64,000 nt of DNA from Thermoanaerobaculia bacterium. GTDB lineage: Bacteria; Acidobacteriota; Thermoanaerobaculia; Multivoradales; J023. Both the position numbers and the translations under genes were made by a program. Below the pieces are notes generated by a model that ran no database searches, was not told where the DNA came from, and saw nothing but the letters and a program-made list of their open reading frames with translations. Of the stretch, positions 50,129 to 62,046 are shown one piece after another. The stretch lies in the NCBI GenBank assembly GCA_028066595.1, contig JALCBJ010000001.1, positions 144,415 through 208,414 of the forward strand, read 5' to 3'. Each line of letters opens with the position of its first letter. Position 1 is the stretch's first letter.

Positions 50129-52954
50129 CTAGCGACCGCTCGAAGGGGCCGGCGGGGAAATCTCGAGGAACCGCTGGAGCTGGCGCGACGACCTGTGCTC
50201 GGGACCCAGGACGCGGTCGACGACTTTCGCGAGCGCAGTCGCCCTACGGCGGGTGTCGTCGTCGGGAGCACGTCGCAACAAGACTCCCATGCGGTTGACC
50301 GCGATCTGGAGCGTGGTCGGATTGTCGGCACCGAGACGGCTGTGGGCGATCTCGAGCGCCCGATCGAAGGCCTCCGCGGACGCCTCGAGGTCGCCGGACA
50401 GTCTGCGGACGTCGGCCAGGTTGTTCCACGCCGTCGCCAGAAGGGGATGATCCGAGCCCAGCGTCTCCGCGATCACCTCGACGACGATCCCGAACTCCTC
50501 GTGCGCTTCCTCGAGCCGGCCTTGAGCCTGAAGGCTCCGGGCTAGGTTGTTGCGCAGGATCGCGACCCGGGAATGACGCTCACCGTAGCTCCGTATCGCA
50601 GTGTCCAGGAGCTGGCGATGGAGCTCCTCGGCCTGTGCCGGTTCGCCGAGACGGGAAAGGACCGTCGCCAGACCGGTGCGGGAGCTCGCAAGATCGAGGT
50701 GATCGTCCGGCAGTGCGACCTCTTGAATCGCGATCGCGCTCCGATACAAGTCGGCCGCCCGCGAGAGATCGCCTCGGTCCACGGCGAGATTGGCCTGGTT
50801 CAACAGAGTGTTGCCCACCAGCCGGTGACCGTCACCGAGCAGCGAGCGGCGCATCTCGACGACCTCGGCGAACAGCGCCTCGGCCTCGTCGTAGCGCCCT
50901 TGGCTTTGGGTGACGGACGCGATCTGACTGAGCGTGACCGCGATGTCCGGATGGCCGTCGGGAAAGAGCTCGTGCTGCATCGCCAGCGCCTCTCGATAAC
51001 GCCGCAGTGCGTCGTCGTGGTCCCCTTGGCGTCGCAGGATCGTTCCGAGGTCCCGCAGGAAGACCGCGACGTCGGGGTCCGGCCGCCCACCGCGCACCGA
51101 CACGAGATCCTCCAGTCCGAGTCGCAGAAGCTCGATGGCAGAGTCCGTTTGATCGCGCTCGCGCAGCAGCGCCGCAAGCCGATGCCGCACGTGGGCGCGT
51201 GCCACCGGTTCGTTCCCCTCTTCGAGACGCTTCAGCGCGTCCCGAAATGCCGTGTCGGCCTCTTCCAGCCGGCCGGCTTGCTGATGTGATGCCGCAAGCT
51301 CCGAGAGTGCCAGCGCCGTCTCGGGATGGGTGAATCCCAGCGACGACTCGAGAAGCGTCACCGCCTCTTCGAGAAGGGTGTGGGCTCGCTCCAGCTCCCC
51401 GAGCGCCAGCAGGACGCCGCCCAGTGCGGACGCCGTATCGGCCAGGTCCTCGGCCTCGGCGGTTCCGGACGCGCGGCGTATTTCGAGGGACTCGGAGAGG
51501 AGATCCGCAGCAGCGCGGTAGTCGCCCAAGCCGGCGTAGGCCTCGCCGATCGGTTGCAGGAACGCAGCACGGGTGGCCGGGGCCAGATCGGTGCGGGCGG
51601 CACGTTGCCGGGCGCGATCGAGCAGCTCTCCCGCCGTGATGTCGCGTCCTCGGGAGGTACCGGGATCGGCGGCAGCGAAGACCTCCACCAGGTAGTCAGA
51701 CACCGTCTCGGCGTTGTCGCGCTCGCGGAGGATCTCCGAGCGCTGCAACCAGAGTCCCAGGGTCGCGGCCACGAGCACCAAGAAGGCAGTCGCCGTCGCG
51801 CTCGCCGCCAGCCGATGACGGCGCAGAAAACTGACGGTGACGTAGGTGAGGGAGTCGCCTCGGGCTTCGACGGGAAACCCTCTCCGATGTCGCTCTATGT
51901 CGCGCGCAAGCGCTTCGGCGGATGAGTATCGGCGCGCCGGGTCCTTGTGCAGGGCTTTCTGCACGATCTGGTCGAGGTCGCCGCGGAGCCGTGCGCTCCA
52001 TCGCCGGGGAGCGAGATCGTCCGGAAGCGTCGCGGCGGTAACCGACGGCGGCGGCGGGTCGCGCTCGACGATCGCCAACGCCAGGCGGGCCGGGTCTCGT
52101 CTCTCCTCCTCGAACGGATGGCACTCCGCGAGGAGCTCGTAGAGAAGTACACCGAGACCGAACACGTCGGCCGTGGTGCCGATGGCCTCGCCGCGGATCT
52201 GCTCGGGACTGGCGTAGGGCGGCGTGAGCAGACGTTCCGACGGGCCGGTCTGGCCGCCGGCCAATTCGGCGGAAAGGAGCTTGGCGATACCGAAGTCGAG
52301 GAGCTTGGGGTGGCCTTCGGCAGTGACCAAGATGTTGCCGGGCTTGAGGTCGCGATGCACGACGAGCTGCTGATGCGCCGCATGCACCGCCGAGCACATC
52401 TCGACGAAGAGCTCGAGCCGAGCGTCGAGCCCTGGTTCTACCTCCGTGATGAATCGGTCGAGGGGTTGACCATCGACCAGCTCCACAACCAGGAAGGGCC
52501 GTCCGTCCGCGGTGGTGCCGCCGTCGAGAAGCCGGGTGATCGACGGGTGCTCGAGACGAGCCAGGATCTGGCGCTCCCGATGGAACCGCTCCTGAAAGTC
52601 CGGGAGGGCCAGCTCGTCGCTCAGGACCTTGAGCGCTACTTGTTTCTCGAACGTGCCGTCGTCGCGCTCCGCGAGATAGACCGTGCCCATTCCGCCGCGG
52701 CCGAGTGAACGAACGATACGGTAGCTGCCGATCCGTTCGGGCAGCGGCTCGGGCGGCGCGGGCAGGATCTGAAAGGCAGGACGGTCGATGAAGGTCGGCG
52801 CGTCCCGGTGCGCGTGCAGCAAATCGAGCACGTTGGCTGCCAGCTCTTCGTCGCCGGCGCACAGGTGCTCCAGGAGATCGGTCGGATCGGCGGGATCCTC
52901 ATCGAGAATGGTGTGAAACACCTCGCCGGCCCGCTTCCAGCGTTCGGGGCTCAC
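50129..52954 (-). CDS. Serine/threonine protein kinase with TPR region
   Basis: From GTG 52954 the protein is 941 residues and starts within the GTGA overlap with the sigma-factor gene. The kinase domain (about 75-340) has the glycine loop GRGGMGTVYLAE, K109, the VVHRDLKPGN loop (HRD at about 200-202), LLDFGIAKLL and the SPEQ activation-segment end. A membrane helix (about 400-422) follows, then a long external TPR array (about 440-930). It is a membrane receptor kinase, and the coupled sigma factor is its most likely phosphorylation target. The longer frame to 53011 lacks a ribosome site. Confidence 0.93.
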   Translation of the reverse strand: MSPERWKRAGEVFHTILDEDPADPTDLLEHLCAGDEELAANVLDLLHAHRDAPTFIDRPAFQILPAPPEPLPERIGSYRIVRSLGRGGMGTVYLAERDDGTFEKQVALKVLSDELALPDFQERFHRERQILARLEHPSITRLLDGGTTADGRPFLVVELVDGQPLDRFITEVEPGLDARLELFVEMCSAVHAAHQQLVVHRDLKPGNILVTAEGHPKLLDFGIAKLLSAELAGGQTGPSERLLTPPYASPEQIRGEAIGTTADVFGLGVLLYELLAECHPFEEERRDPARLALAIVERDPPPPSVTAATLPDDLAPRRWSARLRGDLDQIVQKALHKDPARRYSSAEALARDIERHRRGFPVEARGDSLTYVTVSFLRRHRLAASATATAFLVLVAATLGLWLQRSEILRERDNAETVSDYLVEVFAAADPGTSRGRDITAGELLDRARQRAARTDLAPATRAAFLQPIGEAYAGLGDYRAAADLLSESLEIRRASGTAEAEDLADTASALGGVLLALGELERAHTLLEEAVTLLESSLGFTHPETALALSELAASHQQAGRLEEADTAFRDALKRLEEGNEPVARAHVRHRLAALLRERDQTDSAIELLRLGLEDLVSVRGGRPDPDVAVFLRDLGTILRRQGDHDDALRRYREALAMQHELFPDGHPDIAVTLSQIASVTQSQGRYDEAEALFAEVVEMRRSLLGDGHRLVGNTLLNQANLAVDRGDLSRAADLYRSAIAIQEVALPDDHLDLASSRTGLATVLSRLGEPAQAEELHRQLLDTAIRSYGERHSRVAILRNNLARSLQAQGRLEEAHEEFGIVVEVIAETLGSDHPLLATAWNNLADVRRLSGDLEASAEAFDRALEIAHSRLGADNPTTLQIAVNRMGVLLRRAPDDDTRRRATALAKVVDRVLGPEHRSSRQLQRFLEISPPAPSSGR

Positions 52955-53547
52955 CTCGGTTCCTCGGGCGGTCGCAGTCGGTCGTAGAGCCAGGCTCGAC
53001 TGAGAGTCCACTCCTTGCTCACCAGCGATGCACTGATCTCCAGCACTTCGGCCGTCTCGTCGATGGTCAGACCGGCGAAGTAGCGAAGCTCCACGATGCG
53101 GCTCTGCCGCGGCGACAGTGCGGCGAGTGCCGTCAAGGCTTCGTCGAGCGCCAAGAGATCGAGGTCCGTGCCGGCTCCGTGGGGCTCCTGTACTTGCTCG
53201 AGAGCGACGAGCTTGAAGCCTCCTCCGCGCTTGTCGCGTCTCCTTCTCCGGGCGTGGTCCACGAGGATTCTGCGCATCAGTTGCGCCGAGAATCCGAAGA
53301 ACTGGGAGCGATTGATCCAGCTCACCTCTTCATGACCCGCCAGTCGGAGAAAGACCTCGTTCACCAATGCGGTCGGCTCCAGCGTGTGATCCGGTCGTTC
53401 ACCTGCCATGGCGCGGCGAGCTCGGCGACGCAGTGCACCCTCGACGACCGGTATCAATCGTTCGAGGGCTCCGGGCTCACCGGCGCTCCAGGCGTGGAGC
53501 AGCTCGGTGACGTCTACGGATTCGCTGGGTATGGCTTCGTCGGTCAT
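52951..53547 (-). CDS. ECF sigma factor coupled to the kinase (TIGR02999 type)
   Basis: The 198-residue protein (ATG 53547, GGAG six bases upstream) has sigma region 2 (LLHAWSAGEPGALERLIPVV, ALVNEVFLRLAG) and region 4 (LSPRQSRIVELRYFAGLTIDETAEVLEISASLVSKEW). This is the family typical of Acidobacteria and Planctomycetes. It lacks an anti-sigma neighbour. Instead a Ser/Thr kinase overlaps it by 4 bp, as in kinase-controlled ECF systems described elsewhere, so activation by phosphorylation is the natural hypothesis. It diverges from the secreted protein at 53708. Confidence 0.92.
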   Translation of the reverse strand: MTDEAIPSESVDVTELLHAWSAGEPGALERLIPVVEGALRRRARRAMAGERPDHTLEPTALVNEVFLRLAGHEEVSWINRSQFFGFSAQLMRRILVDHARRRRRDKRGGGFKLVALEQVQEPHGAGTDLDLLALDEALTALAALSPRQSRIVELRYFAGLTIDETAEVLEISASLVSKEWTLSRAWLYDRLRPPEEPR

Positions 53548-53707
53548 GACGGGCTCCGCAAGGAGTCGAATTGTTGCGATCGTCCGGGTATCTGCCGCGA
53601 ATCGTCGACAAATGTTGCTCGAGCTATCGTACGCTTTCAGGACAATAGACATTCCGCGGTGGGTCGGCGCTGGCGGATCAACTCTCTGACTTGAAGGAGA
53701 CAAGTCG

Positions 53708-55390
53708 ATGCAGTGGACCCTTTCAGCGCTGTGGATCCGACACACCCTGCTCATGTGTTTCGCCGTACCACTCCTGGCAGCAGGAGCAGCTGGTGCCCAG
53801 GCGAACGAAGCCGAGCGGCGGGTTCTGATGCCTTGGGAACAAGAAACCGAAGTGTTGAGGGCGGCGCCGCCGACAGCCGTGGCCCGTGGCCCGGTGCACG
53901 GTGTCCTGACCTACGACGAGGAGGGCGACCTTCTATACCGGCCCTGGTCCTCCAGTTTCTGGGACGTGGGCTCCGATGCGTTCCTCCTCGAATATTCGAA
54001 CAGCAACGGCGAGACCCAGCGTCAGCGTTTCGTTGTACATGCCGGCGTGCAAGAGACCCGTTGGGCGCAGTTCGGATTCGAGCCGTCCGAGCTGGAGCCG
54101 CCGGAGATCGATCCGGCAGAACAGCTGGGCGTCGACAGCGCCGCCGCCCTTCTCGGGGAACAGGGTGCGCGCATCGAGCTCGACGGCTCGGGCTCGGATG
54201 CGTATTACCGGATTCCGATCCCGGTTTCACCGCCTGGGCGTGGTGGTCCTCCTCCGGCAGACCCGGGCTGTGCGGACATGCACATGGACCTGTCGAGCGG
54301 AGATCCCGACGGAGGTGACGGGCTCTATCGGGAGGCACTCGAGGCATGCCTTTCCACGCAGGATGGTCTCTACGCCTGCAGGTTCACCTTGCTGCGCATC
54401 GCAGGAGACCAGAGCGACATCGCCCGTGTCCAGGTAGCCATGAGCGAGGACGCGACCTGGATCCGAGGTGTTTTCTTCGACGACCTTGGGCAACAGCACA
54501 GCACAGCCTGGATTCCTCTGGAGGATCAGCCGTATACGCTGCGGACGGACTGGTGGACGGACGATGTGGGTGGAATCCGCTTGTGGCTCGACGGGCGGGT
54601 CGTGGCGTCGACCGTCGGCCACAGCTCTGGGCAGGAGTCTCGCGCAGTGGAAATCGGTGCGATCGATGCGCCGGTGGAGGCCCGGTTGGCCTTCTCCCTG
54701 GACTCGATTCATCTCTACCATGGCGCGGTTGGCCAGGGCGCGACGGCCTCCCTGAGCGATCCTTTCGAGACCGACCTGTCGAAGTGGACAGCGATGGGCC
54801 TGGGTGGGGGTTCGCTACGGATCGACTCGTCGGCCGCTCTAGCGGGCGGCGCCGGACTCGAGATCGGCCTCGGGGCAGGTTGGGGCTCCTGGCTCCGGGA
54901 CGACACTCCGGAGGCCGTACGCAACGCCGGCCTGCGGTTTCTGGTGGACGCATCGGACCTGGATCTCGGACCGGCGCCGAGCGATCCGACAAGCGGGCCG
55001 GTATTCGGGCTCGTCCATGGGCTGAAACTCGACGACGGCGGTCCTGGCTCGGCGTTCAGCCTGCGTTTGTGGCGAAGCTCGACAGGTTTCCGAATACAAG
55101 CGAGCGCAGCGAACGACGACGGCAGCTTCGGCAGGACGCCCTACGCGCCATCCAGTGACGTCCACGTGGTCGATCTGCGTTGGAAGGCCGCCACCGAGCC
55201 GGGGCGCCGCGACGGGTGGCTTCGCTTCTGGCTCGACGGCGATCTCGTGGGCGAGGCGACACGCCTCGACAATGCACAGGCGGTCATGGAGTCGGTCCGG
55301 CTCGGAGCGCTCAATCTCCCGGACGAGGCTGCCGGCCTGCTTCGCTTCGACGAGTACGAGGTGTTGCGCGTCGGGCCCCTACCCGAGTAG
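53708..55390 (+). CDS. Secreted protein with lectin-like domains
   Basis: The 560 residues begin with a signal peptide (about 1-31). Two beta-rich modules resembling concanavalin/LamG folds are visible at about 185-345 and 355-555, with W-rich strands such as LRTDWWTDDVGGIRLWLDG and the paired VDLRWKAATEPGRRDGWLRFWLDGDLVG. A DPFETDLSKWTAM segment precedes the second module. AAGGAGA precedes the ATG. It diverges from the sigma factor across a 160-bp region and is a candidate target of it. The ligand is unknown. Confidence 0.8.
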   Translation: MQWTLSALWIRHTLLMCFAVPLLAAGAAGAQANEAERRVLMPWEQETEVLRAAPPTAVARGPVHGVLTYDEEGDLLYRPWSSSFWDVGSDAFLLEYSNSNGETQRQRFVVHAGVQETRWAQFGFEPSELEPPEIDPAEQLGVDSAAALLGEQGARIELDGSGSDAYYRIPIPVSPPGRGGPPPADPGCADMHMDLSSGDPDGGDGLYREALEACLSTQDGLYACRFTLLRIAGDQSDIARVQVAMSEDATWIRGVFFDDLGQQHSTAWIPLEDQPYTLRTDWWTDDVGGIRLWLDGRVVASTVGHSSGQESRAVEIGAIDAPVEARLAFSLDSIHLYHGAVGQGATASLSDPFETDLSKWTAMGLGGGSLRIDSSAALAGGAGLEIGLGAGWGSWLRDDTPEAVRNAGLRFLVDASDLDLGPAPSDPTSGPVFGLVHGLKLDDGGPGSAFSLRLWRSSTGFRIQASAANDDGSFGRTPYAPSSDVHVVDLRWKAATEPGRRDGWLRFWLDGDLVGEATRLDNAQAVMESVRLGALNLPDEAAGLLRFDEYEVLRVGPLPE

Positions 55391-55598: not shown

Positions 55599-55637
55599 GA
55601 TCCACGGCGGAACGGTTCCGCCGTGGATCTTATTCTT
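55599..55637 (+). terminator. Strong palindromic terminator
   Basis: Arms GATCCACGGCGGAAC and GTTCCGCCGTGGATC are perfect complements around one base, folding as a 13-bp stem with a 5-nt loop, followed by TTATTCTT. It sits 208 bp after the preceding stop and 207 bp before the next start. Confidence 0.75.
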
Positions 55638-55844: not shown

Positions 55845-57521
55845 ATGCAACGAATTCTGAACGCGGTTCGCTCCGGGCGTGCACCTGCTCTCGTAGCAGC
55901 GTCCTGGGCGGCAGCCATCGTCTTGGTGCTCTCGACGGGGCCTGGTTTTGCCATCGAGGGGCCGGCCTTCGACGGCAAGGCCCACCACGGACCCGGTGCT
56001 CATGCACTGACGAATGTCCGTATCGTGCAGGCGCCCGGGCGCGTTGTCGACAACGGAACTTTGGTGATGCGTGACGGCGTGATCGTCGCCGTTGGCGCCG
56101 ACGTCGAAGCTCCGTCCGACGCCAAGGTCTGGGACCTCGAGGGCGCAACCCTGTACCCGGGCTTGATCGAATCCTTCGCCACCTTCGAGGTCCCCGAACC
56201 CGAGGCGGGTGATGAGCCAGCTGCGGGCCTACACCCGAATCCTCTGGTGCGTCCGGAGCGCCAAGCAGCCGCCCACGCCAACAATGATGGTCTGGCCAAG
56301 AAACTCCGCTCCGCAGGTTTCACGGCTGCAGTCCTGGTGCCCAAACAGGGCATGTTCCGCGGCCAGAGCGTTGCCGTAGCGACGGGTGACGGCGGAGTGG
56401 GCCCCAACCTACTCCGCGATCGTGTGGCGCAGAACGTGCGTTTTCGCACGCTAGGCTTCGGCGCCGGATATCCAACCTCGATCATGGGCGCCATGGCACT
56501 GCTCCGGCAAGTGACGTCGGACGCGCGATGGCATGCCGCCGCCCACGCTGCTCATGAAGCCGATCCATCGCAGAGCCGGCCCGTGTTCAACGCGTCGCTG
56601 GCTGCCTTGGGCCCGGCGACGCGCCGTGAGCAACGGGTGGTTTTCGAGGCCCGCGATGTCGATCGAGTACTACAGATCGCTGACCTGGCGTCGGAGCTGG
56701 AGTTCGATGCCTTGGTGGTCGGCAACGGAGACGAGTACCAGCGCCTCGACGAGGTCGCGGCGACGGGACTGACCTTCCTGCTACCGGTGAAGTTCCCCGG
56801 CGCGCCGAACGTCCCCGAAGACGACGACTTAAGCGTCGGCCTCGGAACACTGCGTCATTGGAAGCAGGCTCCCGAGAATCCGCTACGGCTGCAGGAGGCG
56901 GGTGTTTCTTTCGTCTTCACCAGCCATGAGCTGAACGACCCGAAGAAGATCCACGAGCATCTCGCGACGGCAATCGAACGGGGTTTCGATGCAGACGCCG
57001 CCCTCGCTGCACTGACCACCGGGCCGGCGGAGCTGTTCGGCCTCGATGAGACCCTCGGCACTCTAGACGCGGGCAAGGCTGCCCACGTGGTGGTCACCGA
57101 GGGCGATCTGTTCGCCGAAAAGACCAAGATCCGAGACGTCTGGGTGGACGGCAAACGCTTCGCACTCAAAGATGTGCAGCCGCCGTCGGTAGAGCCGCTG
57201 GGTACGTGGGAAGTGGTGATCAAGGCCGGTGGTGGATTCGAGATGCCCGCCACGGTCGTCCTTACCGGCTCGATCGACGATCTGGGTGGCAGCGTCGACT
57301 CCGCTCAGGGCACGCTCCCGATTGCCAGCGCGGAGGTTTCCGGCGACACGGTCTACGTCGAGGTCGATATGGCGCCGTCCGGAACGCCCGGCATGTTGAC
57401 TTTCGAAATGAAGATCGACGGCGAGAACACCCAAGGTAGCGGCACATCGCCTATGGGTGAGTTCACGTTCACTGGTAGTCGCATATCGAAGCCCGAAGCA
57501 GATCCGGAGGTGATCCAATGA
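55845..57521 (+). CDS. Amidohydrolase-like secreted protein, metal ligands lost
   Basis: From ATG 55845 (TTGGAG upstream) it is 558 residues with a signal peptide (about 1-36). The amidohydrolase composite domain is recognisable: NVRIVQAPGRVVDNGTLVMRDGVIVAVG, then LEGATLYPGL and a C-terminal ALTTGPAELFGLDETLGTLDAGKAA. Where active enzymes have the metal-binding HxH (PGLIDAHxH) it has PGLIESFATF, so it cannot bind metal normally. It overlaps the next amidohydrolase gene by 4 bp. It may be a non-catalytic partner subunit of the middle gene. Confidence 0.85.
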   Translation: MQRILNAVRSGRAPALVAASWAAAIVLVLSTGPGFAIEGPAFDGKAHHGPGAHALTNVRIVQAPGRVVDNGTLVMRDGVIVAVGADVEAPSDAKVWDLEGATLYPGLIESFATFEVPEPEAGDEPAAGLHPNPLVRPERQAAAHANNDGLAKKLRSAGFTAAVLVPKQGMFRGQSVAVATGDGGVGPNLLRDRVAQNVRFRTLGFGAGYPTSIMGAMALLRQVTSDARWHAAAHAAHEADPSQSRPVFNASLAALGPATRREQRVVFEARDVDRVLQIADLASELEFDALVVGNGDEYQRLDEVAATGLTFLLPVKFPGAPNVPEDDDLSVGLGTLRHWKQAPENPLRLQEAGVSFVFTSHELNDPKKIHEHLATAIERGFDADAALAALTTGPAELFGLDETLGTLDAGKAAHVVVTEGDLFAEKTKIRDVWVDGKRFALKDVQPPSVEPLGTWEVVIKAGGGFEMPATVVLTGSIDDLGGSVDSAQGTLPIASAEVSGDTVYVEVDMAPSGTPGMLTFEMKIDGENTQGSGTSPMGEFTFTGSRISKPEADPEVIQ

Positions 57522-59020
57522 GCCATATCTCGAACCCGAGAAGAACGCGAGAAGCGATGACGAGAGCCTCTCTTGTCTTGCTTTCTGGAGTCTTGTTGGC
57601 CCTGCCGATGCAGGCTTTCGACCCGGACGCTTGGAACGCCGAGCAGCCCGAGCAACCCGGAGTGATCGTCGTCCGCGGCGCAACCATCTGGACTGCCGCA
57701 GACGACGTTTCTCCCGAAGATGCGGTTCTGGAGAATGCCGACCTGCTGATCCGCGCCGGTGTGATCGAGGCGATCGGCCAGAATCTGCAGGTGCCGTCCG
57801 ACGCGGTGGAGATCGACGGCACCGGCAAGCACGTGACCCCAGGTCTGATCGACGCCCACAGCCATACGGCAGCGTCCGGCGGCTTGAACGAAGGCTCGAA
57901 CAACGTCACCTCCGAGGTGCGCGTGGCGGACGTTCTCAATCCCGAGGACGTCAACCTATATCGTCAGCTCGCGGGTGGCCTCACCATTGCCAACGTGTTG
58001 CACGGCTCCGCCAACGCCATCGGCGGCCAGAATGCCGTGATCAAGCTGCGGTGGGGTCTGGAGGCCGACGGCCTGCTGATGCAAGAGGCGCCTCAGGGCA
58101 TCAAATTCGCCCTTGGCGAGAATCCGAAGCGTTCCAATTTTCGGGCGCCGGAGCCTCGCTATCCGACCACCCGCCAAGGAGTGGAGAAGTCCATTCGCGA
58201 GGCATTCGAGGCGGCGATCGACTACCGCGACGCGCACCAGGCCCACAACAGGGCCCTGAAGATGGGCAAGAAGAACCTCGTCCCACCTCAGCGAGACTTC
58301 CAGCTCGAAGCTTTGGTGGAAATCATGGACGGAACACGGCTCGTGCATGCTCACTCCTATCGCGCCGACGAGATTCTCATGTTGATGGAGGTGGCTGAGG
58401 ACTACGGTTTCACGGTGGCGACCTTTCAGCATGTGCTGGAAGGCTACAAAGTGGCTGACGAGTTGGCAGCGTCCGGCTCCGGCGCGTCGTCCTTCAGCGA
58501 TTGGTGGGCCTATAAGTACGAGGTAATCGATGCCATTCCTCACAACGGCGCGATCATGTGGGACCGCGACGTCCTCGTCTCGTTCAACTCCGACTCCGGC
58601 GAGTTGGCCCGGCGGCTCAATCTGGAGGCGGCAAAGGCCGTGCGTTGGGGCGGCGTGCCGGAGGTTGAAGCGTTGAAGTTCGTCACCCTCAATCCGGCGA
58701 AACAGCTTCAGATCGACAAGTGGGTCGGATCACTGGAACCCGGCAAGCACGGCGACTTCGTGATCTGGAGTGGTCATCCGCTCTCTACCTATAGCCGGGT
58801 CGAGCAGACCTGGGTCGATGGCCGGAAGTACTTCGATCGGCAGACCGATCTAGAGGCTCGTGAAACCATAGCTGCCGAACGGCAAGCATTGTTGCAGGAA
58901 GTCCGTGATTCCGGAGACGAACGGGCAGAGGACGCAGAGGATACGGAGCCTGATCCCGAAGATGTCGACCGAATCGTCGACTCGTACCATGGTCACCCTC
59001 ATCAGGAGTCCGGACGATGA
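57518..59020 (+). CDS. Amidohydrolase family enzyme, metal ligands intact
   Basis: The 500-residue protein starts in an ATGA overlap with GGAGG seven bases upstream. It has a signal peptide (about 1-33), then the composite domain with HxH in TPGLIDAHSHTA (about residue 116), further ligands in LVHAHSYRADEI and ATFQHVLEG, and the final Asp in FNSDSGELARR. It is the only one of the three tandem paralogues with a full active site. Imidazolonepropionase-like or peptidase activity is typical of this type, and the substrate is unknown. It overlaps the third gene by ATGA. Confidence 0.92.
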   Translation: MSHISNPRRTREAMTRASLVLLSGVLLALPMQAFDPDAWNAEQPEQPGVIVVRGATIWTAADDVSPEDAVLENADLLIRAGVIEAIGQNLQVPSDAVEIDGTGKHVTPGLIDAHSHTAASGGLNEGSNNVTSEVRVADVLNPEDVNLYRQLAGGLTIANVLHGSANAIGGQNAVIKLRWGLEADGLLMQEAPQGIKFALGENPKRSNFRAPEPRYPTTRQGVEKSIREAFEAAIDYRDAHQAHNRALKMGKKNLVPPQRDFQLEALVEIMDGTRLVHAHSYRADEILMLMEVAEDYGFTVATFQHVLEGYKVADELAASGSGASSFSDWWAYKYEVIDAIPHNGAIMWDRDVLVSFNSDSGELARRLNLEAAKAVRWGGVPEVEALKFVTLNPAKQLQIDKWVGSLEPGKHGDFVIWSGHPLSTYSRVEQTWVDGRKYFDRQTDLEARETIAAERQALLQEVRDSGDERAEDAEDTEPDPEDVDRIVDSYHGHPHQESGR

Positions 59021-60375
59021 ACCTCGACAAGACAAAGTTGATGCACTTGAGATCGCACCTCGTCTCGAAGACGTCTCATCGGTCGAGTCACAAACCCGTG
59101 TTCTCCACGCTAGCCATGCTCATGATCTTGCTTTCACCGTGGACTCTAGTGGCCCAGGACGGGCCCATCGTGGCACTGGTGGGGGCTACGGTGCACACGG
59201 TGAGCGGCGACGACATCGGGAACGGTACGGTACTCGTCCAAGACGGTCGCATCATCGCAGTCGGGGCCGGTATCGAAACACCCGACGGTGCCGAGGTCGT
59301 CGATCTCTCCGGGAAGCACTTGTACCCAGGCTTCGTGCTCTCGGCTTCTGCACTCGGCCTGACCGAGATCGGGGCCGTGCGTGCTACCAACGACCTCGGT
59401 GAAATCGGCGACAACAATGCCGACGTGCGGGCCGAGGTGGCGTTCAACGCAGACTCGTTGCTGCTTCCCGAAACCATGGCGGGCGGTGTTCTCACGGCCC
59501 ATGTATCCATGAATGGCGGAACGATCACTGGCACCACGGCGGTGATGCGCTTGCATGGCTGGAACTGGCAAGACATGACGATTTCGACCCCCGCAGGAAT
59601 GCGGTTGGACTTCCCGTCCGTCTCGACGGCGGGCGACGATGAAGAGGATGCCGAGTCCAGCTCCGAGGCGATCGAGCAGCTCGACGAACTGATCGAGAAT
59701 GCCGAGCACTACGCAAAAGCCAAGGCGGCAGGCACTGTCGACCACGACCCAAAGATGGAGGGTCTGCTGCCCTTGCTCGAGGGTGAGGTGCCGCTCTACC
59801 TGTTTGCTTACAACAAAGCTCAGATCGAAAAGGCCCTGGATTGGACTGCGGAGAAGGGCCTGGACAACCTGGTGTTGTTCACCGGTCAGGACGCACGCTA
59901 TGTAGCGGAGCGCCTGGCAACGGAGAACATTCCGGTCGTGCTGACAGGCATCCTGTCGCTGCCGTGGCGGGCCTGGGAGGGTTACGACACGCCCTTCACC
60001 ACACCCAGCGTGCTACACGAAGCTGGAGTTCGATTCGCCATCAGCGACTCGGCATCCAGCTTCGGTGCCATGAACTCACGCAACCTGCCTTTCCACGCCG
60101 CTCAGGCTGCTGCCTTCGGCCTGCCGAAAGAAATAGCCCTGCGCAGCGTCACGCTGTCGCCCGCCGAGATTCTCGGCGTCGCCGACCACATCGGCTCGAT
60201 CGACGTGGGCAAAGAGGCCACGTTCTTCGTGTCCAACGGAGATCCCCTGGAGATCCGCACGAGCATCGAGAGGGTATGGGTGCAAGGGCAGGAAGTCGAT
60301 CTGAAGAATCGCCATCAGTACCGGCTGTACGACAAGTACAACAACCGGCCACGGCCTGCAGCGACGTCCGAGTAG
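59017..60375 (+). CDS. Amidohydrolase-like secreted protein, metal ligands lost (third copy)
   Basis: The 452-residue protein (AGGAG eight bases before ATG 59017) has a long n-region and signal segment ending near residue 45. It keeps the composite start (ALVGATVHTVSGDDIGNGTVLVQDGRIIAVG) and end (SPAEILGVADHIGSIDVGKEATF). The HxH site reads YPGFVLSASAL, and no His pair is seen, so it is probably non-catalytic. It is the last gene of the trio and a stable hairpin follows. Confidence 0.85.
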   Translation: MNLDKTKLMHLRSHLVSKTSHRSSHKPVFSTLAMLMILLSPWTLVAQDGPIVALVGATVHTVSGDDIGNGTVLVQDGRIIAVGAGIETPDGAEVVDLSGKHLYPGFVLSASALGLTEIGAVRATNDLGEIGDNNADVRAEVAFNADSLLLPETMAGGVLTAHVSMNGGTITGTTAVMRLHGWNWQDMTISTPAGMRLDFPSVSTAGDDEEDAESSSEAIEQLDELIENAEHYAKAKAAGTVDHDPKMEGLLPLLEGEVPLYLFAYNKAQIEKALDWTAEKGLDNLVLFTGQDARYVAERLATENIPVVLTGILSLPWRAWEGYDTPFTTPSVLHEAGVRFAISDSASSFGAMNSRNLPFHAAQAAAFGLPKEIALRSVTLSPAEILGVADHIGSIDVGKEATFFVSNGDPLEIRTSIERVWVQGQEVDLKNRHQYRLYDKYNNRPRPAATSE

Positions 60376-60430: not shown

Positions 60431-61525
60431 TCACGTCACACGGTCTTCGGTGTGCTCCCGAGGCAAGGCTTCCTCGGGTGGGCGTCGTCGCCAGCGTTTG
60501 TGCATCCACACCCACTGTTCGGGACGACGACGTACCTGCTCTTCGATGGCGGCGGTCATCACGGCCGTCGCCTCGGTGATGTCGTCGGGTAGGGACAGCG
60601 GTGGATGGAAGCGGACACAGTGGCTGCCGTCGTTCAGCCGCTCTGAAAAAACGGGCACAACCGCTGCACCGAGGCGCAACGCCAGATCGGCCCCGGCGGT
60701 GGGTGTGTGCGCCGGCCTTCCGAAGAAAGGGACCCAGACGCCATCCGTCTCGATGTCCTGATCGAGGAGCATCACGAGAGCTCCGCCGCTACGCAACACG
60801 CGCAGCATGCCCGAAATCGCGCGCCGCTCACCGCGGGGTAGCGTCACACTGCCGAAGTGGGCACGTAAGTCCTCCGCCACCTGTGCTGCGCCTTCGACCT
60901 GGCGAACCATCGCTGTGAGGCCCAGGCCATGACTGAGGTTGGCGGTGCTTAACATCTCCCAGTTGCCGCAATGCGCGGTGAGTAGAAATACCGCCCGCTT
61001 CGCCCGGCGCAACTCCTCGATGATCTCGAAGCCTTCGACGCGTACGTGGTGCAGTGAGGTTTCAGGGCTACGGCCCCACAGATGGAGCAGCTCCGCGGCG
61101 GCCGTACCCAGGTGAAGGAAGGTCCGTCGCGCCAGCAGACGTCGTTCGGTCTCCGGCATCTCGGGAAACGCGATCGCGAGGTGCGCCAACGCTCGGCTGC
61201 GATCCCGGCCGGACACTATCCACGCCAAACGTCCGAGCATGCGGCCGACGCGTTGGGCTCCGCCCCAGGTCAAGGCGCCGAAGCCGAAGCGCATGGAGCG
61301 CAAGGCCGGCTCGAGCCAGATCGTGCGCAGCCGCCGGCGCCAGCGTTTCCATCGGGATGCCGCTTCGGCCTGCTCCACAGCGGCTCGCTCCACGTCGGCC
61401 TGCTCCGCGTCGGCCTGCTCCGCGTCGGCCTGCTCCGCGTCGGCCTGCTCCACGTCGGCCTGCTCCACGTCGGCCTGCTCCACGATCAACCGTCGAGGGA
61501 ATAGTGCGCCATGACACGCTGCCAT
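60431..61525 (-). CDS. Lipid A biosynthesis acyltransferase (LpxL/HtrB family)
   Basis: The enzyme transfers an acyl chain to lipid A at the inner membrane. From ATG 61525 it is 364 residues. The HxxxxD-type motif of the family appears as LTAHCGNWEM (H...N..E) near residue 196, with LLDQDIETDGVWVPFFG further on. The first 55 residues contain a pentapeptide repeat (VEQAD/AEQAD) encoded by a 15-bp tandem repeat, absent from typical LpxL. TTG 61489 and GTG 61483 are alternative starts, and none has a Shine-Dalgarno. It overlaps kdsC by 40 bp. Confidence 0.85.
   Translation of the reverse strand: MAACHGALFPRRLIVEQADVEQADVEQADAEQADAEQADAEQADVERAAVEQAEAASRWKRWRRRLRTIWLEPALRSMRFGFGALTWGGAQRVGRMLGRLAWIVSGRDRSRALAHLAIAFPEMPETERRLLARRTFLHLGTAAAELLHLWGRSPETSLHHVRVEGFEIIEELRRAKRAVFLLTAHCGNWEMLSTANLSHGLGLTAMVRQVEGAAQVAEDLRAHFGSVTLPRGERRAISGMLRVLRSGGALVMLLDQDIETDGVWVPFFGRPAHTPTAGADLALRLGAAVVPVFSERLNDGSHCVRFHPPLSLPDDITEATAVMTAAIEEQVRRRPEQWVWMHKRWRRRPPEEALPREHTEDRVT
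61388..61484. repeat. 15-bp tandem repeat in the acyltransferase 5' end
   Basis: Six near-identical 15-bp units (CTCCACGTCGGCCTG or CTCCGCGTCGGCCTG) plus a partial seventh run from 61388 to 61484. They are in frame and encode (V/A)EQAD on the minus strand. Being a multiple of 3, copy-number change would keep the frame. Confidence 0.9.
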
Positions 61526-62046
61526 TCCCCACGCGCCCGCAGGATCTGCTCGATCATCTCCCGGGCTGCGCCGTCGCCTCCGTCCCGTGTCAGCACGCGG
61601 TTTACCACCGCTCGAACTTCCGCCACCGCGTCGGCGGGCGCGAAGGAGAGTCCGCATCGGCGAAGTACGGGAAGATCCGGTAGATCGTCGCCGACGAATG
61701 CCACGCGCGACGCCGAAGTGCCCTGGCGTGCCAGGAAAGCATCGAGATCGGCGTCTTTGTCGCCCGAGCCGAGAATCACTTCGTCGATGTCCAGCTCCTC
61801 GGCCCGGAACTCCAGCGGCCGACTTCTGCGCCCGGAGAGAAATCCCAACTTCAGTCCGGCCCTCTGTGCCAGTCGGAATCCGAGCCCGTCTCGCACATTG
61901 AAGGGCTTCACCGTTTCTCCTCGACGGGTATAGATCAGCCGCCCGTCCGTCAGGACGCCGTCCACGTCGAACAGCAGCCACTCCAGAGCCTCCGCCCGCT
62001 GGCGGAAGCCGTCGTCGTCGAAGGTCTGGGTCTCGGTGGCGTCCAT
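61486..62046 (-). CDS. kdsC: 3-deoxy-D-manno-octulosonate 8-phosphate phosphatase KdsC
   Basis: KdsC removes the phosphate from KDO-8-phosphate in the LPS core pathway. The 186-residue protein starts at ATG 62046 and has the HAD motif DVDGVLTDG near residue 27, GFLSGRRS (motif II Ser/Thr region) and VGDDLPDLPVL (motif IV), matching the family's length and arrangement. The adjacent acyltransferase fits the same LPS pathway. TAGACT lies 8 nt before the ATG and no Shine-Dalgarno is seen. It is separated from the next gene by a 313-bp divergent gap. Confidence 0.93.
   Translation of the reverse strand: MDATETQTFDDDGFRQRAEALEWLLFDVDGVLTDGRLIYTRRGETVKPFNVRDGLGFRLAQRAGLKLGFLSGRRSRPLEFRAEELDIDEVILGSGDKDADLDAFLARQGTSASRVAFVGDDLPDLPVLRRCGLSFAPADAVAEVRAVVNRVLTRDGGDGAAREMIEQILRARGEWQRVMAHYSLDG

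Follow-up and report, generated by a model that had tools for sequence, protein, structure and literature searches.

Three overlapping amidohydrolase genes in the window

The window analyzed here is a stretch of 64,000 nucleotides from a Thermoanaerobaculia bacterium (contig JALCBJ010000001.1, positions 144,415 to 208,414). Three mutually homologous open reading frames, P1, P2 and P3, lie in tandem on its + strand, and the genome carries one copy of this trio. The genes and junctions are as follows.

55599..55629, + strand: terminator-like hairpin of 14 pairs upstream of P1 (consensus match only)
55845..57521, + strand: P1, 558 aa, putative exported pseudo-amidohydrolase with a TIM-barrel followed by a C-terminal beta domain
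57518..57521, + strand: ATGA overlap of P1 and P2
57518..59020, + strand: P2, 500 aa, predicted catalytic amidohydrolase, closest solved structure 3ooq
59017..59020, + strand: ATGA overlap of P2 and P3
59017..60375, + strand: P3, 452 aa, putative exported pseudo-amidohydrolase

The hairpin before P1 suggests that the trio forms a transcription unit of its own. The N-termini of all three proteins resemble Sec signal peptides when read by eye, with a charged start and a hydrophobic stretch, and P1, P2 and P3 are probably exported. All three exceed the curated Pfam cut-offs of PF01979 and PF07969, and by these profiles (Amidohydro_1 and Amidohydro_3) they are members of the amidohydrolase superfamily. 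For each of them 3ooq is the best solved relative, with E values of 1e-53 for P2 (more exactly 1.1e-53), 8e-35 for P3 and 3e-11 for P1. Searches against named NCBIfam amidohydrolase functions (HutI, NagA, PhnM, dihydroorotase, dipeptidases and others) gave matches that were all far below the equivalog cut-offs.

Neighboring genes of the trio in the window encode an ECF sigma factor, a kinase-TPR protein and a lipid A acyltransferase. The ECF sigma factor gene (52951-53754, minus strand) precedes one for a Ser/Thr protein kinase whose TPR tail is long, the two occupying 50129-53754 on the minus strand. Divergent from the sigma factor gene is a 560-aa ORF at 53708-55390, upstream of the trio, which has a signal-like N-terminus by eye and no Pfam match at E 0.001. 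At 61365-61484 a 15-base repeat, TCGGCCTGCTCCACG, occurs eight times in frame, reading EQADV/EQADA. It lies within the lipid A acyltransferase ORF (60431-61981, minus strand), in its N-terminal part, and is close to where a HAD phosphatase gene, also on the minus strand, ends; that gene resembles KdsC.

The metal site is present in P2 and missing from P1 and P3

The five metal ligands typical of the catalytic members of the superfamily (the HxH motif, the β5 and β6 histidines and the β8 aspartate) are found in P2 as H114, H116, H279, H305 and D359. The ligand positions of P2 and the corresponding β1 segments of P1 and P3 are as follows.

56166..56183, + strand: P1 β1 segment I108-E-S-F-A-T113, at the expected place of HxH
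57857..57865, + strand: P2 H114-S-H116, the HxH ligand pair, His in 137/137 complete relatives
58352..58354, + strand: P2 H279, β5 ligand, conserved in 138/138
58430..58432, + strand: P2 H305, β6 ligand, conserved in 138/138
58592..58594, + strand: P2 D359, β8 ligand and general base, conserved in 138/138
59335..59352, + strand: P3 β1 segment V107-L-S-A-S-A112, at the expected place of HxH

At the five ligand columns the window P1 has F111, T113, E268, G293 and H361, none of which is one of the five ligands, and P3 has A110, A112, F263, T289 and S345. The loss thus extends past the HxH motif to the β5, β6 and β8 positions. The original prediction described three overlapping amidohydrolases with metal ligands in the middle one only, joined by 4-bp ATGA overlaps and reading IESF, IDAHSH and VLSA at β1 of P1, P2 and P3. 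The reading frames, the overlaps at 57518-57521 and 59017-59020, the Pfam assignments and the aligned ligand columns all agree with this description, including the three motifs as given.

Conservation of the ligand pattern among relatives

A P2 relative is present in 56 of the 59 genomes of the same genus, family and order that were searched. A scan of named genomes gave at least 598 candidate stretches, from which the best 80 were kept. Where the taxonomy is known, trio loci occur in at least 11 phyla: Acidobacteriota, Planctomycetota, Bacteroidota, Pseudomonadota, Verrucomicrobiota, Armatimonadota, Ignavibacteriota, Zixiibacteriota, Eiseniibacteriota, Krumholzibacteriota and Gemmatimonadota.

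All five ligands are intact in the window P2 and in every complete P2 domain among the relatives (137/137). No P1 domain (0/113) and no P3 domain (0/119) keeps more than two of the five; some two-gene loci are among those counted for P2 and P3. The β6 histidine is replaced by glycine in 99 P1 and 84 P3 domains. The ligand pattern of the window is not a matter of chance, since it is seen again in every complete relative examined. In the tree, P1, P2 and P3 form three separate clades with SH-aLRT support of 99-100, and 3ooq branches beside the catalytic clade. Three supported clades together with the ligand tally imply that the site losses are old and inherited. To judge from these sequences, the metal site disappeared early from both P1 and P3, perhaps in a single event for each, and the two chains were then kept. 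The outer genes neither decay freely nor retain metal sites in relatives, the two outcomes named beforehand as counting against the original prediction; P1 and P3 are intact over great distances. Distances correlate among the three families (r 0.73-0.86; none of 2000 Mantel permutations reached so high a value), which shows shared inheritance and not contact.

The two site-less chains are constrained to different degrees. At a threshold of ≥90%, 107 sites are conserved in P2, 51 in P3 and 24 in P1. In P3 a distinct set of polar and aromatic residues is conserved (E117, D126, E129, W182, Y232 and R355). Conservation in P1 is poor outside Gly, Ala and Pro and is mainly structural, and P1 has evolved at roughly double the rate of P2 (mean patristic distance 2.1 vs 1.0). 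This pattern fits non-catalytic subunits, with P1 as the less constrained of the two.

Natural fusions and predicted domain packing

Gene fusions are the strongest sign that the three proteins act together. P1-P2, P2-P3 and P1-P2-P3 fusions occur naturally, and rearranged orders are also seen. Among the loci read, two-gene and truncated cases aside, the arrangements are a P1-P2 fusion followed by P3 (87 loci), three separate genes (22), P1 followed by a P2-P3 fusion (16), a P2-P3 fusion followed by P1 (6) and a single P1-P2-P3 gene (4). On the P2 tree the fusion state changed at least six times for P1-P2 and at least four times for P2-P3. In the separate-gene loci, four-base overlaps of the kind seen in the window are found at 18 of the 22 P1-to-P2 junctions and at most of the P2-to-P3 junctions. 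A single P1-P2-P3 chain fixes the ratio of the three domains at 1:1:1. The fixed stoichiometry previously read from the 4-bp overlaps is better supported by the natural fusions. In seven genomes P3 is not adjacent to P1-P2, and a P3-family gene is present elsewhere in all seven.

Two natural fusions were modeled with AlphaFold2. The P1-P2 fusion L229 (1005 residues, 89 rows) gave a pLDDT of 89.7 and a pTM of 0.89, and the P2-P3 fusion L200 (869 residues, 27 rows) gave a pLDDT of 85.0 and a pTM of 0.87. By our own estimate, randomly placed halves would give a pTM nearer 0.5-0.6. The predicted placement of the fused domains, P1 on P2 and P3 on P2, is confident; it appears to be determined, since the pTM values obtained would be unexpected otherwise. 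In the L229 model an eight-strand all-beta segment links P1 to P2 and corresponds to the C-terminal tail of the window P1.

57177..57518, + strand: P1 C-terminal all-beta domain, approximately residues 445-558 (strands 438-533 of the L229 model)

This domain has no Pfam match. The matches from VIA and Foldseek fall mostly on the P2 domain of the fusion models. 3ooq superimposes on the P2 domain of the L229 model with Z 47.1 and 1.9 Å over 371 residues, and it shares ~34% identity with the P2 portion of the L200 model.

Two-gene loci and gene neighborhood

Genomes of the order also have loci in which a live P2-like gene is paired with a dead P3-like one and P1 is absent (L082-L099). Because such loci exist, the trio is not the sole viable form. 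In a quick tree with long branches, the dead partners of the two-gene loci fall outside the P3 clade in two groups and may represent further independent losses. The pairing of live and dead amidohydrolases may predate the trio or be more general. A divergent pair was also noted at L100:4782-7314 and L101:4773-7305, in which a live amidohydrolase (VDAHTHYG) has a partner reading IEAHSQTG, with one His kept. This may be a separate instance of partner inactivation, or an intermediate one.

Clustering of the ORFs of 159 loci revealed no recurrent partner among the conserved neighbors sought, and the largest clusters resemble antisense shadow ORFs. By eye, an amino-acid permease-like gene is present in nine loci, some of them duplicates, and an M24 peptidase-like gene in four. 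These neighbors offer a hint that points to peptides. Typical substrates of the amidohydrolase superfamily are small amides, peptides or cyclic amides.

Proposed assembly and alternative explanations

We consider it quite likely that P1, P2 and P3 form one extracytoplasmic enzyme in a 1:1:1 ratio or a multiple of it, with P2 as the sole catalytic chain. P2 would be a metal-dependent TIM-barrel hydrolase using the HxH motif (114/116), H279, H305 and D359, giving one active site per trio. P1 and P3 would be pseudo-subunits of the same fold that arose by ancient duplications. Homologous protomers pack together in ordinary homo-oligomeric amidohydrolases, and P1 and P3 may pack on P2 in the places held there by identical protomers. 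They could fix the fold of P2, shape the entrance of the active site, or regulate it. The view that the outer two proteins are non-catalytic partners in a heteromeric enzyme draws support from the ligand loss, the conservation pattern and the fusions, all read from sequence. For a physical complex the evidence is indirect and comes from the fusions, the predicted packing and co-inheritance. We infer that the separate-gene version in the window assembles like the fusions and that activity depends on P1 and P3.

The three proteins might instead be exported together without forming a stable complex, P2 being the enzyme and P1 and P3 independent binding proteins for substrate capture or sensing. 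That the window has three separate genes, each with its own signal-like N-terminus, would suit such an arrangement, as would the seven genomes with P3 away from P1-P2 and the P2-like/P3-like pairs that lack P1. However, all three domains have been fused repeatedly, including in single P1-P2-P3 polypeptides, and packing is confidently predicted in both fusion types, so that we judge independent action to be improbable.

Two other explanations concern the fate of the lost sites. P1 and P3 could be enzymes with metal-free or relocated-metal chemistry, in favor of which P3 conserves E117, D126, E129, W182, Y232 and R355; P1, however, has almost no conserved polar residues (its 24 sites are mostly Gly, Ala and Pro, against the 107 sites of P2), and the former ligand positions vary freely, making this very unlikely. 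The lost metal sites and the roughly twofold faster rate of P1 could be taken as signs that an ordinary amidohydrolase was duplicated and that P1 and P3 are copies in decay. Yet both losses are common to at least 11 phyla with the frames intact, and each family forms one clade with conserved sites of its own. Decay is hardly credible and is already contradicted by the survey of relatives.

Returning to the heteromeric enzyme, we lean toward the broader proposal that the trio represents a widespread, undescribed class of exported heterotrimeric metallo-hydrolase in which the dead homologues are obligatory and gate or complete the active site. All three genes, as well as the ~1000-aa fusions, are annotated 'amidohydrolase', and two thirds of such annotations probably name non-enzymes. 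Assays of single chains may fail for want of the partner chains. The family is also a clean natural example of an enzyme with two dead copies kept across many phyla. Fused forms are present in the culturable genera Shewanella, Idiomarina, Pedobacter and Hymenobacter, which makes the system easy to test.

Comparison with known systems

The closest solved structure, 3ooq, is a Thermotoga maritima amidohydrolase from structural genomics that aligns over the whole P2 domain and has the same ligand motif. Unlike the P1/P2/P3 trio, its crystal contains a single catalytic chain type. The open-access papers searched gave no function for 3ooq. The COG1228 prolidase/carboxypeptidase and imidazolonepropionase structures (3feq, 3mtw and 2g3f) share a P2-like fold and ligand layout with Z ~24-26 and are much more distant from P2 than 3ooq is. 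No function can be transferred from these relatives, since no curated NCBIfam cut-off is reached. Metal-dependent bile salt hydrolases, the subject of one paper, were also considered and set aside, as they are a different amidohydrolase group from the trio.

An inactive chain of the amidohydrolase superfamily is known from the Pseudomonas ATCase dodecamer, in which pseudo-dihydroorotase (pDHO) is an obligatory 1:1 partner that stabilizes the complex (PMC7053772). There the dead chain serves the unrelated ATCase in pyrimidine synthesis, whereas the trio would combine two dead chains with a live homologue. The trio is also not an ATCase-pDHO locus, as its neighbors in the window include no ATCase and the dihydroorotase models match far below cut-off. 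In the trypanosome AdoMetDC-prozyme system a dead paralogue partners its active relative, and allosteric activation has been proven (PMC5201418), but the fold is unrelated and one pseudo-subunit is present instead of two.

Among the open-access papers searched, none describes a tandem, inactive or heteromeric amidohydrolase trio of one live and two dead homologues. The earlier description of the enzyme as undescribed therefore holds within those papers and is not claimed beyond them. Dead amidohydrolase-fold subunits and dead paralogue partners in other folds are already known; by that search, the trio of one live and two dead chains would be new.
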